Shown piece after piece: positions 5,980-19,905 of a stretch of DNA of 28,226 bases (the first letter of the stretch is position 1; every line of letters starts with the position of its first letter). Position numbers and translations under genes: made by a program. The stretch lies in IMG/VR virus record IMGVR_UViG_3300037109_000037, positions 1 to 28,226 of that record; one strand, 5' to 3'. The DNA is from a virus. Under the pieces are notes generated by a model. The model was not told where the DNA came from and did not search any database. It was given only the letters and a program-made list of their open reading frames with translations.

Positions 5980-6266
5980 CCCCGCCCGTCGTGTTCGCCT
6001 TCGCGGATCCGGCACGCCGGACCTGGATCGCCCTCAACCGGGCAGGCGACGCCTACCACGTGGTGACCCCGACGCCCGATGACGCCCAGCTCATCACGGA
6101 CGGCCTGCGGCACAAGGGCCAGCTCAGCTGCTCGTGCGCCGGCGGGCGCTACCGCGGGAGCTGCTACGTGACGGTCGCCTGTGAGGCGATCGAGGCTGGC
6201 CCCTCCGCCGAGCCCACCTGGTTCGACGCGGCTCCGGGCGAGCTCGTGGAGGCCTGGGGCAAGTGA
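5976..6266 (+). CDS. Small Cys-rich protein, SWIM-like
   Basis: 96 residues. The C-terminal half contains LSCSCAGGRYRGSCYVTVACE, reminiscent of the SWIM zinc module (C-x-C...C-x-H), but the expected final His is Val, and a further Cys four residues on may substitute. SWIM modules bind DNA or protein and are common in phage early genes. It lies between the annealing protein and SbcD with ATGA/GTGA overlaps, so it may assist recombination; this is inference. Confidence 0.55.
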   Translation: MTPPVVFAFADPARRTWIALNRAGDAYHVVTPTPDDAQLITDGLRHKGQLSCSCAGGRYRGSCYVTVACEAIEAGPSAEPTWFDAAPGELVEAWGK

Positions 6267-7411
6267 CCAGGATCGGATTTTGCGCAGACCTCCACGTCGA
6301 CGCCTACGGGTCCCGCGTCGATCCGGCAACGGGCCTCAACGCCCGCCTCGTCGACTACCTCGCGACGACCGCCTGGATGGCCGCCGAGGCCCGGCGCCGC
6401 GGGGCCGAGGCGCTCGTCGTCGCCGGCGACTTCACGGAGCGGCGCCATCCCGCGCCCTGGCTCGTGAGCCGGATCCGCGGCGCGCTCTCCGGCTTCCCGG
6501 GCCGCCAGGTCTACCTCCGCGGGAACCACGACGGGGAGATCGCCGGCGGCTCGATCGTGACCCTCCTCGACGATGGGTTCGAGGAGCAGGACGAGGCCGG
6601 CCGGACCGGGGTCAGCCGGCCGGGGCTCGAGCCGATCGCCTTCGACGTCGTCCTCGCCTGCGTCCCGCATCTCGATCGCCACTGGTTGCGGGCCCAGCCG
6701 GGCATGGAGAAGGTCCCCGACGCCGAGGTCTATCAGGCCCTCGGCGACCAGTTCCTGACGATCGCCCGGGGCCTGTACGCCGAGGCGCGGGCCGACTACC
6801 CGGACGCCGCGTGCGTGCTCGTCTGCCACCAGACCCTTGCCGGCGCCCACATGTCCGAGAGCCAGCAGGCCTTCCTCGGCGATCTCGGCCTGGTCGTCGA
6901 CGCCCGGGCTCTCGCCGCGATCGGCTTCGAGGGGATCGTCGCCGGCCACCTGCACCGCCACCAGGTCGTGCTCGAGGAGCCCCCAGTCCTATATCCGGGC
7001 TCGATCGAGCGGGTGGACTTCGGGGAGGAGCACGAGGCCAAGGGGTTCGTGATCGCTGACGTCGAGCCCGGCCGATTCGCCTGGGAGTTCGTCGAGACGC
7101 CGGCGCGGCGGTTCGTGACGCTCATGGGCGATCCGGCCCTCATCGGAGCTTCCGAGGTCGGGGACGCCATCGTTCGCGTCCTGGACCTGGCGCCCGACAC
7201 GGACACCGCGCGGCTGCGGGTAGAGCTCGAAGCTGCCGGGGCCTTCGAGATCGTCCAGATGCAGCAGCGGCGCCCCGATGCCCCGGAGATCGCCGGCGGG
7301 CTGTCGGAGTCGCTCGGTCCCCTCGAGGCGCTCTCCGCGTACTTCGCCGACGACCCGGATGCCGAGCCGCTCGTGGCGCTCGGCCGCGAACTCCTGGAGG
7401 ACGCGGCGTGA
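6263..7411 (+). CDS. sbcD: SbcD/Mre11-type nuclease subunit
   Basis: 382 residues from a GTG overlapping the previous stop. All metallophosphoesterase motifs are visible in order: D9-x-H11 (ADLHVD), GDFTE at 55-59, GNHDG at 87-91, CHQ with H189, and GHLH at 228-231, followed by the Mre11/SbcD signature PGSIERVDFGE near 245. These residues bind two Mn ions for 3'-5' exonuclease and endonuclease action on DNA ends and hairpins. The C-terminal ~110 residues would form the capping domain and the SbcC-binding segment. It is coupled to sbcC by a GTGA overlap, as expected for subunits of one complex. It likely acts in end processing with the upstream annealing protein. Confidence 0.93.
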   Translation: MTRIGFCADLHVDAYGSRVDPATGLNARLVDYLATTAWMAAEARRRGAEALVVAGDFTERRHPAPWLVSRIRGALSGFPGRQVYLRGNHDGEIAGGSIVTLLDDGFEEQDEAGRTGVSRPGLEPIAFDVVLACVPHLDRHWLRAQPGMEKVPDAEVYQALGDQFLTIARGLYAEARADYPDAACVLVCHQTLAGAHMSESQQAFLGDLGLVVDARALAAIGFEGIVAGHLHRHQVVLEEPPVLYPGSIERVDFGEEHEAKGFVIADVEPGRFAWEFVETPARRFVTLMGDPALIGASEVGDAIVRVLDLAPDTDTARLRVELEAAGAFEIVQMQQRRPDAPEIAGGLSESLGPLEALSAYFADDPDAEPLVALGRELLEDAA

Positions 7412-9618
7412 AGCTCGAGTCGATCGACCTGCGCAACTTCCTATCGCACGAGGCCACCCATTGGGAGCCGAACGGCGCGCGCCTGGCGACGATCGTCGGC
7501 TCCAACGGAGCCGGCAAGAGCGCCCTGCTCGACGGCATGCTCTTCGCGCTCTACGACGCCGCCCGCGCCCGGACCGATGACCTCGTGCGCCTCGGCGCCA
7601 CCGACATGTCGGCCGAGGTCACGTTCGCCTTCGCCGGCGCGCGCTACCGGGTCACCCGCGGCCGGACGACGCGCTCGGGCGGCAAGAGCTACCTCGAGCT
7701 CGCGATCGCGCAGGCCGACGGCTCCTGGCGGCCGCTGACGGCCGACTCGATCCGGGAAACACAGGCCGCGATCGAGGCCCTGCTGCGCCTGGATGCGGCC
7801 ACCTTCACGACGGCGGCCTTCCTGCGCCAGGGCGACGCCGACGCGTTCATCTCCGCGACGGCCGCCGAGCGGAAGCGGATCCTCGGCTCCGTCCTGGGGC
7901 TCGACGTGTACGCGGCCGCGGAGGCGCGGGCCCGCGATCGCGGCCGGATGCTCGAGGGCGAGACTGCCGCGGACCGCCGCGCCATGGAGACGCTCGACGC
8001 CGCGCTCGCGCACCGGGCCGAGCTCGAGGCTGCCGCGACCGCGGCGAAGGCCGAGGAAGAGGCGACGGTCGCAGCGATGGAGGTCGCCGGCCGGCGGCGG
8101 GACGCGGCCGAGGAGACCATGCGTTCTCTCGCGGGCCGGCTGGCCGAGGCCAAGGCAGCGCAGGCCGAGCTGGTCCGGATCGATGCCGACCTCGCCGCCC
8201 TCCGCGAGCGCTACCGCCGAGCTGGCGCGGATCGGACGCTGGCGCAGGCCGCGATCGAGCGGTCGAAGGCGGCGGCGACGGCCGTGGTTCCGGAGCACGA
8301 CGTCCTCAACGCCATGGCCGAGGTCGAGACGCTCGAGGCGGCCGACGAGCGGGAGCGGACCCAGCGCGAGGCCCTCGAGGAACGGCGATCTGAGTTCGTC
8401 GAGATGGAGAGGGTCCACACCCAGGTGGTCGCCGACTGGCGCGGACGCCAGGCCACGTATCAGGGACTCGTGACGGCCCTCGAGGACCAGGGGATGCACC
8501 TGGAACCCATCACCTGCCCGAAGTGCGCGCATCGGTTCCCCGCGGATCCGGGCGACGTCGCCGGTCGGCTCACCACGGCCCGGGCGGAGCTCGCCGCGGT
8601 CGGGCCTGCGCCGGCGGAATCGATGACGATGTCCCGCGCTCGGGTCGCGGTCTCGCGGGCGGAGACGCACCTGCTCGAGCACGCGTTCGATCACCAGCTG
8701 CTGCGGACCGCCCGCTTGGCACTGGACGCGGCACGGGGCGCACACGCGGCCGAAGTAGCCCGGGATGGCGCACGTGTAGCACTGGTCGACGCGCAGGCCG
8801 CCCTTGGCCGCGCTGAAGCCGAGCTGGCGGAGATCGACGCAACCGGGAAGACCGCGGCGAGCGTTCGCGCGAAGGCAGCCGAGCGGGCGGCCGATGCCGG
8901 CAAGGTCAGCGAGGAGCTCGCGGCCGCGGAGACCGAGCAACGCGAAGCGATCGCGGCGGCCACAGATGCCGCCCGGCGCCACGCCGGCGCGATCGCGGCC
9001 GATGCCGAGGCTCGCGGTGCCCTGGTCCGCCTCGCGCGCGACCAGGCGGAGCGCGATCGCATCGCCGGCGACGTTGCCCGAGCCGAGACCCAGCTGGCCC
9101 TCCTGCGCCGGCTGGTGACCGCGTTCGGGGTCACCGGGATCCCGGCCCGGATCATCGAGTCGGTCCTGCCGGAGCTCACCAGCTACGCGCAGGAGCTGCT
9201 CGACCAGCTGCGGCCGGGCATGGCGCTCTCGATCCGGGCCCAGCGAGCGAAGCGGGACGGCAAGGGCATCGTCGAGGCGCTCGACCTCGTCGTCCGCGAC
9301 GACGTCGGCGAGCGGCCGCTCTCGCTCTTCAGCGGCGGCGAGCGGATGTCCGTCTCGCTCGCCCTCGCGGTCGGGCTCTCGCGCCTGGTGGCGCGCCGGG
9401 CCGGGACCGCCATCCGGACGCTCGTCATCGACGAGCCCGACGGCCTGGACTCCGAGGCGCGGCGCGCCTTCGGTCTGGCCCTGCGCGTCCTCGCCCACCA
9501 CGGCGAGCTCGAGCGGGTCGTCGTCGTCAGCCACCACGAGGACCTCGCAGAGGTCGGGGACGCGGTCTACCGAGTGTCCAAGGGCCCGGGCGGGTCCGTC
9601 ATCGAGCAGGTCAGCTGA
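7408..9618 (+). CDS. sbcC: SbcC/Rad50-type ATPase subunit
   Basis: 736 residues. N-terminal LRNFLSHEATHW and Walker A GSNGAGKS (31-38); a long Ala/Glu/Arg coiled coil (~170-365); a zinc hook C370-P-K-C373 at its apex; a returning coil to ~560; then signature LFSGGERMS (SGGE at 642-645), Walker B LVIDEP (D675, E676) and the H-switch SHHEDL. All parts of a working SMC-like ATPase that gates SbcD are present. It is shorter than the ~1050-residue bacterial SbcC, mainly through shorter coiled-coil arms, as in other phage versions such as the T4 gp46 type. Together with SbcD it forms the phage's DNA-end nuclease. Confidence 0.93.
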   Translation: MKLESIDLRNFLSHEATHWEPNGARLATIVGSNGAGKSALLDGMLFALYDAARARTDDLVRLGATDMSAEVTFAFAGARYRVTRGRTTRSGGKSYLELAIAQADGSWRPLTADSIRETQAAIEALLRLDAATFTTAAFLRQGDADAFISATAAERKRILGSVLGLDVYAAAEARARDRGRMLEGETAADRRAMETLDAALAHRAELEAAATAAKAEEEATVAAMEVAGRRRDAAEETMRSLAGRLAEAKAAQAELVRIDADLAALRERYRRAGADRTLAQAAIERSKAAATAVVPEHDVLNAMAEVETLEAADERERTQREALEERRSEFVEMERVHTQVVADWRGRQATYQGLVTALEDQGMHLEPITCPKCAHRFPADPGDVAGRLTTARAELAAVGPAPAESMTMSRARVAVSRAETHLLEHAFDHQLLRTARLALDAARGAHAAEVARDGARVALVDAQAALGRAEAELAEIDATGKTAASVRAKAAERAADAGKVSEELAAAETEQREAIAAATDAARRHAGAIAADAEARGALVRLARDQAERDRIAGDVARAETQLALLRRLVTAFGVTGIPARIIESVLPELTSYAQELLDQLRPGMALSIRAQRAKRDGKGIVEALDLVVRDDVGERPLSLFSGGERMSVSLALAVGLSRLVARRAGTAIRTLVIDEPDGLDSEARRAFGLALRVLAHHGELERVVVVSHHEDLAEVGDAVYRVSKGPGGSVIEQVS

Positions 9619-17936: not shown

Positions 17937-18025
17937 ACTGGTTCGCCGTCATCGGCTGCGCGCTCATGTTGCTCTCGGCGGCCATCGTGGTCGGGCTGAT
18001 CGTCTTCCTGTTGGGGCTGGCGTGA
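17933..18025 (+). CDS. 30-residue single-pass membrane peptide
   Basis: ATG overlaps the previous stop and the end overlaps the excisionase GTG. Nearly the entire product is one hydrophobic helix (WFAVIGCALMLLSAAIVVGL and on). It is probably real because of its exact chaining within the operon. It might be a small regulator of a membrane protein; no evidence beyond hydrophobicity. Confidence 0.5.
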   Translation: MNWFAVIGCALMLLSAAIVVGLIVFLLGLA

Positions 18026-18411
18026 CGACCACGCTCACGCCAGCCGAGGTCGCCGACGCCCTCAAGGTGAGCCGCAGCCTCGTGCTGGCGTGGATCCGCG
18101 AGGGTCGGCTGGGTCACTTCCGGGCCGGGCGGATCATCCGCGTGACGACAGAGGACCTCGCCGCGTTCGTGGAGGCGCATCATGCGCAGGATGGGCAAGG
18201 TGAAGGGTCGCGGGAACGGCCAGGGCAGCATCTACCAGGTGCCCGGGCGTCGGAAGCCGTGGTGCGCGACCATCAGCGCGGGCTGGCGGAACGGCAAGCT
18301 CGTCCGCGTGGCCCGCTACGCAGCGTCGGAGGCCGAGGCCAAGCGGCTCCTGCGACGGCTCCGGGCGGAGCACGCCGAACCACGTCGCTGGGACATCCCG
18401 ACCGTGGCTGA
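18022..18411 (+). CDS. xis: Excisionase-like (MerR/Xis) HTH protein, overlapping the integrase start
   Basis: 129 residues from GTG 18022. The first ~55 residues are a standard Xis/MerR winged HTH: LTPAEVADALKVSRSLVLAW, then IREGRLGHFRAGRIIRVTTE and DLAAFVEAHH. Such proteins bind near att and direct integrase to excision. The frame then runs on for ~70 Arg/Gly/Ala-rich residues inside the integrase gene in another phase, an overlap of up to 230 bases. The tail looks like a shadow of the integrase codons, so the functional part probably ends near residue 58 and the rest may be tolerated. Regulation together with int is implied by the overlap. Confidence 0.65.
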   Translation: MTTTLTPAEVADALKVSRSLVLAWIREGRLGHFRAGRIIRVTTEDLAAFVEAHHAQDGQGEGSRERPGQHLPGARASEAVVRDHQRGLAERQARPRGPLRSVGGRGQAAPATAPGGARRTTSLGHPDRG

Positions 18412-19270
18412 CCATCTCGAGGCGTGGCTGCTCGAGGTCGGCCGCCGGCGGGCGCCGCAGACGACGGCCACCTACCGCTCCGCCGCCGAGACGTGGATCA
18501 TCCCGGCGCTCGGGGAGGTCCGGCTCGACGATCTCACCCGCGGCCAGGTGCAGGCGCTCGTCGACGACGTCGCCGCGATCCGCCGACCCGCCACGGCGCA
18601 GAACGTCCACCACACGATCCGGGCCGCGCTCTCGTCGGCCGTCCGTGACGAGCTGGTGCCGCGCAACGTGGCCTCCCTCGTGGAGGGCCCAGTATCGGAT
18701 CACGCACAGACGGCGATCCTCGAGGGTGACGCGGCGCGCCGCCTGGTCGCCGCGATCGCCGACGACTGGCTGGGCCCGCTGTATGTCCTGCTCCTGGCCA
18801 CGGGTCTCCGGCTCGGCGAGGCATGCGCGCTGGACTGGCGCGACCTCGACCTCGAGCGCGGCACGGTCGCCGTCCGCCAGGGCAAGACGGCCCGCAGCGT
18901 CCGCACCGTGCCGATCCTGGCCTTCGCGCTGCCCGTGCTCCGCGCCCACCGCAGCCGGGCAGCCACCGTCGACCTGGACTCGCCGGTCTTCCGCGGGGCC
19001 CGGTCCCACGACCGCCTGACCGGCTATGTCGCGAGCCAGCACTGGCCGCGGCTGCTCCGGGACGTCGGCTGGCGCCCGATGCGCGCCCACGACCTGCGCC
19101 ATGCCCACGCCAGCCTGCAGCTGGCCGCCGGGACGCCGATGCGGGCGATCGCCGACCAGCTCGGCCACGCGAACCCGAGCCTGACGGCGAACGTCTACGC
19201 CCACCTGGGATCGGGCGCCCTGCGCGACGCGGCGGACCGCGTCGACGACCTCCTCAAGCGGGAAAGCTGA
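18182..19270 (+). CDS. int: Tyrosine-recombinase integrase
   Basis: 362 residues (ATG 18182; ATG 18191 is an alternative). An N-terminal arm-binding type domain (GSIYQVPGRRKPWCATIS...), a SAM-like core-binding domain at ~70-160, and the catalytic domain at ~175-362 with R210 (ATGLRLGEA), K235 region (RQGKTARSVRT), H303-x2-R306 (HDLRHAHA), H329 (LGHANPS) and nucleophile Y339 (ANVYAHL). All catalytic residues are present, so it should be active. It sits immediately before the tRNA-His fragment and repeats, and follows Xis, the usual int-attP module. Confidence 0.93.
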   Translation: MRRMGKVKGRGNGQGSIYQVPGRRKPWCATISAGWRNGKLVRVARYAASEAEAKRLLRRLRAEHAEPRRWDIPTVADHLEAWLLEVGRRRAPQTTATYRSAAETWIIPALGEVRLDDLTRGQVQALVDDVAAIRRPATAQNVHHTIRAALSSAVRDELVPRNVASLVEGPVSDHAQTAILEGDAARRLVAAIADDWLGPLYVLLLATGLRLGEACALDWRDLDLERGTVAVRQGKTARSVRTVPILAFALPVLRAHRSRAATVDLDSPVFRGARSHDRLTGYVASQHWPRLLRDVGWRPMRAHDLRHAHASLQLAAGTPMRAIADQLGHANPSLTANVYAHLGSGALRDAADRVDDLLKRES

Positions 19271-19306: not shown

Positions 19307-19326
19307 GAACGAGTGCAGATCGAGTG
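19307..19326 (+). repeat. Left copy of 20-bp direct repeat, candidate integrase arm site
   Basis: GAACGAGTGCAGATCGAGTG at this place is repeated exactly at 19463-19482, in the same direction, on the other side of the tRNA-His fragment. A shorter GAGTGCAG word recurs at 19322-19329 directly after. Pairs of direct repeats flanking a core are how arm-type sites of lambda-like integrases are arranged. Confidence 0.55.
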
Positions 19327-19357
19327 CAGCCCGTCACGTGGGCCACGCCCATAGGCA

Positions 19358-19407
19358 TCGGATTGTGGCTCCGAAGGTTACGGGTTCAATCCCCGTAGGC
19401 CACCCCA
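19358..19407 (+). other. Probable attP core: 3' portion of a tRNA-His (GTG) gene
   Basis: From 19358 the sequence gives an intact anticodon arm (TCGGA/TCCGA, loop TTGTGGC, anticodon GTG at 19365-19367), a 5-nt variable loop, a T arm (ACGGG/CCCGT, loop TTCAATC), a 3' acceptor strand AGGCCAC, the C73 discriminator special to tRNA-His, and CCA. The part upstream does not complete the molecule: an acceptor-like GTGGGCC pairs in only 5 of 7 positions and the D arm is too short. It is therefore a tRNA 3' end, the usual attP core that restores the host gene on integration, lying 87 bp after int. Confidence 0.7.
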
Positions 19408-19458
19408 CTTCTCCTCGTGGGGACACCGCACAGACCCGCACCAATCCGCGCCGTTCCG

Positions 19459-19758
19459 ATGCGAACGAGTGCAGATCGAGTGATCGAACGAGTGCAGGCT
19501 GACGTGGCAACGCCGCCGCGTCCGCTGACCGACCGCGAATGGCAGGTCTTCGACCTCGTGACAGGCCCTCGCGGCTCGCGCAAGGCCGCAGCCGCGGCCC
19601 TCGGGATCAGTGAGAGCACGGTCGACGGGCACCTCCACAGCGTGTTCGCCAAGCTCGGCGTGGAGACCATCGGAGGGGCCGCTCGGAAGCTCGGACAGGC
19701 CGAACGGCACGGTGGAAAAGCACGTGGTGGAAAAGCACGGGTAGCCGCCAGCGGCTAA
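19459..19758 (+). CDS. LuxR/GerE-type HTH protein
   Basis: 99 residues from ATG 19459; a GTG at 19417 would add 14 residues of unlikely sequence, and GTG 19480 is a later choice. Residues ~21-83 form a GerE-like HTH: RPLTDREWQVFDLVTGPRGS, RKAAAAALGISESTVDGHLH and SVFAKLGVETIGGAARKLGQ. There is no receiver or ligand domain. The end has a tandem GGKAR-GGKAR repeat, encoded by two 15-bp units at 19711-19740. Its start region carries the right-hand attP repeats. It may regulate int or lysis genes; inference. Confidence 0.65.
   Translation: MRTSADRVIERVQADVATPPRPLTDREWQVFDLVTGPRGSRKAAAAALGISESTVDGHLHSVFAKLGVETIGGAARKLGQAERHGGKARGGKARVAASG
19463..19497 (+). repeat. Right copy of the direct repeat plus a half copy
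   Basis: The 20-bp word of 19307-19326 is repeated exactly at 19463-19482, and its first 12 bases (GAACGAGTGCAG) again at 19486-19497. These lie about 56 bp after the tRNA-His fragment, against about 31 bp before it for the left copy. They overlap the start of the HTH gene, so integrase binding could affect its expression. Confidence 0.55.
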
Positions 19759-19830: not shown

Positions 19831-19905
19831 CGCCGGCGGGACGGACGGTAAGTCGCCGGGCCCATAACCCGGAGAGACGGGGTTCGACTCCCCGGCTGGC
19901 AACCA
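19831..19905 (+). tRNA. Initiator tRNA-fMet (anticodon CAT)
   Basis: A 75-nt cloverleaf with encoded CCA. Acceptor CGCCGGC pairs with GCTGGCA, except C1 and A72, the mismatch that marks bacterial initiator tRNAs. The D stem has G10-C25, A11-T24 and C12-G23; A11-T24 is another initiator trait. The anticodon stem CCGGG/CCCGG ends in three G-C pairs, the third initiator trait. Anticodon CAT is at 19863-19865. The T arm is CGGGG/CCCCG with loop TTCGACT. Two oddities: position 33 is C instead of the near-universal T, and the D loop is short with a G13/A22 mismatch. It is complete and unlike an elongator tRNA-Met or tRNA-Ile. It may be phage-encoded or, if the region holds host DNA, a host copy. 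Confidence 0.82.

Follow-up and report, generated by a model that had tools for sequence, protein, structure and literature searches.

A putative attP site for a host tRNA-His gene in an unintegrated phage predicted to infect Limnocylindria

Layout of the locus

The stretch of DNA analyzed here (the window) is IMG/VR virus record IMGVR_UViG_3300037109_000037, a linear record of 28,226 bases. Immediately 3' of a tyrosine integrase gene (int), it carries, in order, two CGAGTGCAG sites, a 53-nucleotide (nt) 3' part of a tRNA-His gene, a hairpin, and three more sites of the same kind. With a probability that we put near 95%, this segment (19307 to 19497) serves a temperate phage as its attP. The features that bear on this reading are listed below; the four-site model named there places a pair of sites on either side of the core, at set distances from it and with the two sites of a pair spaced 11 to 12 bp apart.

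18182 to 19270, plus strand: tyrosine integrase gene, 362 amino acids (Pfam Phage_integrase, 1.8e-24; PHROG integrase, 4.6e-62)
19310 to 19318, plus strand: predicted left arm-type site 1, CGAGTGCAG (sequence; four-site model)
19321 to 19329, plus strand: predicted left arm-type site 2, CGAGTGCAG, 11 bp past site 1 (sequence; four-site model)
19355 to 19407, plus strand: putative attP core, 53 nt equal to the tRNA-His (GTG) gene, anticodon stem to CCA, of two Chloroflexi metagenome-assembled genomes (MAGs)
19363 to 19369, plus strand: predicted strand-exchange region, the 7-nt anticodon loop TTGTGGC (from relatives L067, L068, and L069)
19402 to 19424, plus strand: hairpin CCCCAC/GTGGGG beginning at the tRNA 3' end, a possible terminator (fold -11.3 kcal/mol, z -2.6)
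19466 to 19474, plus strand: predicted right arm-type site 1, CGAGTGCAG (sequence; four-site model)
19477 to 19485, plus strand: predicted right arm-type site 2, degenerate CGAGTGATC (sequence; four-site model)
19489 to 19497, plus strand: predicted right arm-type site 3, CGAGTGCAG (sequence)

A preliminary description of this DNA, made from its letters alone, had placed a 50-nt tRNA-His (GTG) 3' half with C73 and CCA at 19358 to 19407, 87 bp past the stop of an intact int. Coordinates and spacing are exact, and the int reading frame (18182 to 19270) is intact. The 50 nt read as stem TCGGA, loop TTGTGGC with anticodon GTG, stem TCCGA, T-arm, acceptor 3' strand, C73, and CCA; identity with the host gene goes beyond them to 53 nt (19355 to 19407). 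The same description had reported a 20-bp direct repeat, GAACGAGTGCAGATCGAGTG, which is indeed exact at 19307 to 19326 and 19463 to 19482, and half-copies GAGTGCAG, which do lie at 19322 and 19490. These repeats are better parsed as sites of ~9 to 11 bp with a period of 11 to 12 bp, beginning at 19310 and 19321 on the left and at 19466, 19477 (degenerate), and 19489 on the right. Twenty 7-mers are common to both flanks of the core, against a maximum of 9 at 9,164 other window positions, and under the four-site periodic model the core outscores every sampled position in the window. We predict that arm-type sites flank the core on either side.

The core in host genomes

The preliminary description had proposed searching bacterial tRNA-His genes for the core and would have counted a blank result against itself. 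A scan of 84,980 species genomes for the exact 50-nt core found it in 2 MAGs, Chloroflexi bacterium CSP1-4 and MGR_bin394; both have it as part of an intact tRNA-His (GTG) gene. A family in the class Limnocylindria likewise bears the name CSP1-4 (PMC13212565), and the shared name suggests that the MAG CSP1-4 belongs to that family. A degenerate form of the core matched 35 of 177 genomes of the class; the window's own variant (TTCAATCC) is confined among class genomes to CSP1-4 and MGR_bin394, and other phages of the family carry core variants found in other class members. Because the variants track different class members, the core points to a host lineage and not merely to a phylum. We therefore predict a host in the class Limnocylindria, near the family CSP1-4, and by the matching gene the hosts would be Chloroflexota of soil and fresh water. 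Thus the expectation that the core could identify the host held at the level of lineage and did not extend to a strain. Direct comparison of the window's DNA with the class MAGs gave mostly short chance matches. A few contigs (G038:C63, G071:C47, and G081:C117) match it at 66 to 86%, but phage contigs are not reliably binned into MAGs, and the support for the host class is therefore weak.

Conserved geometry around the core in relatives

A search based on the core yielded five further phages, a biased sample, and we therefore used the integrase alignment alone. It gave 14 relatives at E<=4e-33, the window's own virus excluded; records L002 and L003 are the same virus as the window and were not counted as independent evidence. 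The tRNA-His 3' part lies 3' of int in 11 of the 14 relatives, and in one of these an HNH gene stands between the two. The phage integrases split with full support from MAG integrases adjoining other tRNAs in a quick tree, in which use of tRNA-His requires 3 changes, against 12.0 in shuffles. Phage GenBank records gave no DNA match to the int-attP region.

The four-site model was scored at the cores of 12 phages, with up to 1,500 randomly chosen positions in the same sequences for comparison; we preferred it to the shared 7-mer test, which has little power where the arms of a phage have diverged. All 12 have two repeat sites of ~8 bp at about -50 and -39 and two at about +57 and +69 from the core. 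Each lies beyond the null of its own sequence (p 0.0007 to 0.009), and the combined Fisher value of 1e-21 is slightly inflated, since the G005 and G006 integrases are 97% identical. The repeat motif itself varies: CGAGTGCAG in the window, GGGTCCCG in G003, AGGCTCAC in G004, TAGGGGTC in G005, and a GACTAAC-like motif in L067. Constant position with changing sequence is as expected of arm sites that co-evolve with their integrase. In some relatives the last part of the int reading frame consists of the left arm sites, so it is the core and not the gene from which their distance is kept. The earlier concern that related phages might conserve int and not the repeats and core is answered by these integrase-sharing phages, which keep both the core and the paired-repeat geometry.

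Integrated forms and an empty site

Integrated forms were found among the relatives. Locus L010 runs from within the 5' part of a tRNA-His gene, with 22 nt to the contig end, across the core and into phage DNA that carries a tRNA-Met and holin-like and terminase-like open reading frames (ORFs) in the window's order; by its sequence we read it as an attL. Contig G023:C285 carries the int 3' end, left arms, and core followed by host DNA, without right arms, and we assign it as an attR; G027:C326, with int, left arms, and core and again without right arms, is read as a second attR. The 5' half of a tRNA-His gene lies on G023:C135, which overlaps G023:C285 by 4+48+59 nt (~111 bp), the core plus 59 nt, where the shared stretch ends; it is probably the empty site. 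Such an assembly overlap would be expected if empty site and attR coexist. The preliminary description had suggested looking for prophages with attL and attR duplications of the core; attL or attR junctions were found in relatives and not for the window phage.

Two further candidates were not counted. Contigs C294 (L059) and C310 (L060) of G092 have a displaced tRNA-His 3' part together with an intact tRNA-His and TGTCAA repeats; tblastn found no related integrase in G092, and these contigs, with their apparent sugar ABC transporter genes, are possibly a genomic island at the same tRNA-His site. Contig G040:C51 has degenerate repeats past an intact tRNA-His, without a related integrase, and may be a scar.

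Weighing the alternatives

The attP reading of the preliminary description is supported by the host tRNA-His match, by the fixed geometry in relatives, and by the attL and attR forms of those relatives. Several observations weigh against it. No integrated copy of the window phage was found, and the sole other record is of the same virus. The middle right-hand site is degenerate. No tRNA-His core lies within 330 bp of int in three integrase relatives (L070, L075, and L079); L070 and L075 still have paired repeats around a different sequence. In L010 the right-flank GGCTCACC copies are inverted (GGTGAGCCGATGATCGGCTCACC) and face each other, whereas the other phages have direct pairs.

The best-surviving alternative, which we nevertheless hold to be unlikely, accepts the core as attP and takes the flanking repeats as operators for Xis, a repressor, or a LuxR-like protein, as the right sites adjoin the start of a small helix-turn-helix (HTH) gene. 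Repressor operators would not need a constant distance to the core, however, and the site pairs stand on both sides at such a distance in 12 phages, with sequences that vary; the left pair of relatives falls within the end of int, and arm sites of such a layout have been described for mycobacteriophages (PMC3203893).

Less probable still is that the segment marks one end of a prophage, as its attR or attL, or is what remains of a decayed phage tRNA-His. Half a tRNA beside int also looks like an attR, and the Rfam tRNA model is barely over its cut-off on the fragment (30.4 versus 29 bits, with phage sequence paired as the 5' half). Directly 3' of the core, however, come right arm sites and structural and lysis genes of the phage; the real attR copies in MAGs have no right arms, and ARAGORN calls no tRNA in the fragment. 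With phage genes on both sides of the core, the segment reads as an unintegrated attP and not an attL or attR.

A tRNA-dependent lysogeny, in which the host tRNA is lost on integration and one carried by the phage takes its place, is highly improbable. A phage tRNA gene does lie at 19831 to 19905, 423 bp 3' of the core, but this mode calls for a short core that does not rebuild the gene and for a phage tRNA of the same isotype; the 53-nt core here is the 3' part of the host tRNA gene, so that the gene is restored, and the phage tRNA is Met and not His. Chance repeats beside a chance tRNA match, a reading for which we found no supporting point, can be set aside given the 53-nt identity with a host gene, the 7-mer and four-site nulls, and the recurrence in independent phages.

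Proposed integration mechanism

For the attP reading, we infer the integrase binding, the exchange point, the role of Xis, and lysogeny by the window phage as follows. The N-terminal domain of the integrase would bind the paired repeats as arm-type sites and its catalytic part the tRNA-like core, and the enzyme would recombine the core with the 3' part of the host tRNA-His (GTG) gene. Strand exchange would most likely fall within the 7-bp anticodon loop, where we place it because L067, L068, and L069 match tRNA-His only from the loop onward. Since the phage copy matches the host gene without a difference from the anticodon stem through CCA, integration would rebuild an intact tRNA-His at attL, followed by the right arms and lysis genes, and a 3' tRNA fragment would remain after int at attR. 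The hairpin would end tRNA-His transcription at attL, and a xis-like protein would direct excision.

A broader proposal is speculative, and we consider it rather doubtful: that a Limnocylindria clade of tRNA-His-specific integrases combines a frozen attP geometry with fast-changing arms, and that right-arm occupancy and the host tRNA-His promoter jointly control phage genes in the lysogen (a LuxR-like regulator and, in some phages, an initiator-like tRNA).

Relation to known systems

Profile matches of the integrase in the Protein Data Bank include lambda Int with DNA (1z1g and 5j0n), which it resembles in the catalytic and core-binding fold and in the logic of arm and core sites. The lambda attB is not a tRNA gene, and the lambda attP needs IHF and differs in arm arrangement. 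A closer likeness is found in the mycobacteriophages Pixie and Tweety (Clusters K3 and F1), whose attP has a tyrosine integrase and a 47-bp core overlapping a tRNA gene (PMC3203893). The Pixie attP, with a direct arm-site pair left of the core and three sites right of it, closely resembles the window in its two direct left and three right sites and its tRNA core, and also in its varying arm sequences, since mycobacteriophages with a common attP core need not share them (PMC3203893). Pixie differs in targeting tRNA-Lys in Mycobacterium and in an extra inverted P1 site, whereas the window targets tRNA-His in a predicted Chloroflexota host. The CrimD-type attP (Cluster K1) likewise has two pairs of 11-bp arm sites around the core, which a stem-loop separates from the right arm sites, but it has a tmRNA target, an inverted right pair, and a core 5' of int (PMC3203893). 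The anticodon loop is one crossover class listed by Islander, and its class A tRNA islands share with the window the anticodon-loop crossover and the displaced 3' tRNA fragment at the far end; those are mapped islands, whereas the window holds an unintegrated phage attP (PMC4383910).

By sequence, the system belongs with the arm-binding phage integrases and is of a known kind. Its additions are the host group, tRNA-His as the target, and the size of the comparison, which takes in a whole family of phages that had not been studied. Limnocylindria is an uncultivated class (PMC13212565), and searches of open PMC, from which most subscription papers are absent, returned nothing on its phages or prophages. 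A guess from raw sequence has become a tested host prediction for Limnocylindria phages. The dozen natural attP variants with one target and differing arms should be useful for learning how integrases change arm specificity, and the set also supplies candidate integration tools for Limnocylindria bacteria.

Neighboring genes and further observations

All six catalytic residues of the integrase are present (R210, K235, H303, R306, H329, and Y339) and invariant in six relatives. Some 60 residues precede its core-binding domain; in the profile search, no arm-domain model matched them. Two HTH genes flank the site:

18022 to 18411, plus strand: xis-like gene (excisionase HTH in the first ~52 residues; TIGR01764 excise, 5.8e-11, above cut-off; PHROG excisionase families)
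19480 to 19758 (wider range 19417 to 19758), plus strand: small LuxR/GerE-type HTH gene (Pfam GerE, 2.4e-8; candidate GTG starts at 19480, 19492, and 19504)

By these profile matches, an excisionase-family HTH gene, a candidate directionality factor, is present beside int. The xis-like ORF shares ~230 bp with the int start in a different frame and has a long C-terminal tail. The candidate GTG starts of the LuxR/GerE gene fall within or beside the right arm sites, where integrase binding might repress it; an ORF resembling it also lies 3' of the right arms in L012. Past it come the tRNA-Met gene and genes for a papain-like peptidase, terminase, and portal.

The phage tRNA-Met (CAT) gene (Rfam tRNA, 40.1 bits) would sit, in a lysogen, 3' of the host tRNA-His. 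It is initiator-like in its C1:A72 mismatch and GGG/CCC anticodon stem, yet C33 replaces the usual U33; ordinary folding gave no help. Similar tRNA-Met genes lie at the same attP side in L007 (4112 to 4183) and after the attL in L010. An inverted repeat, GAACAG-N5-CTGTTC, ~10 bp past the tRNA end, is kept in L007, L009, L010, and L012 and may be a terminator or a regulator site; the window has CCCCAC/GTGGGG there instead. Elsewhere in the window (6263 to 9618), neighboring nuclease-like and SbcC-like ORFs (736 amino acids; PHROG, 8e-66) form an SbcCD-like pair in this small phage.
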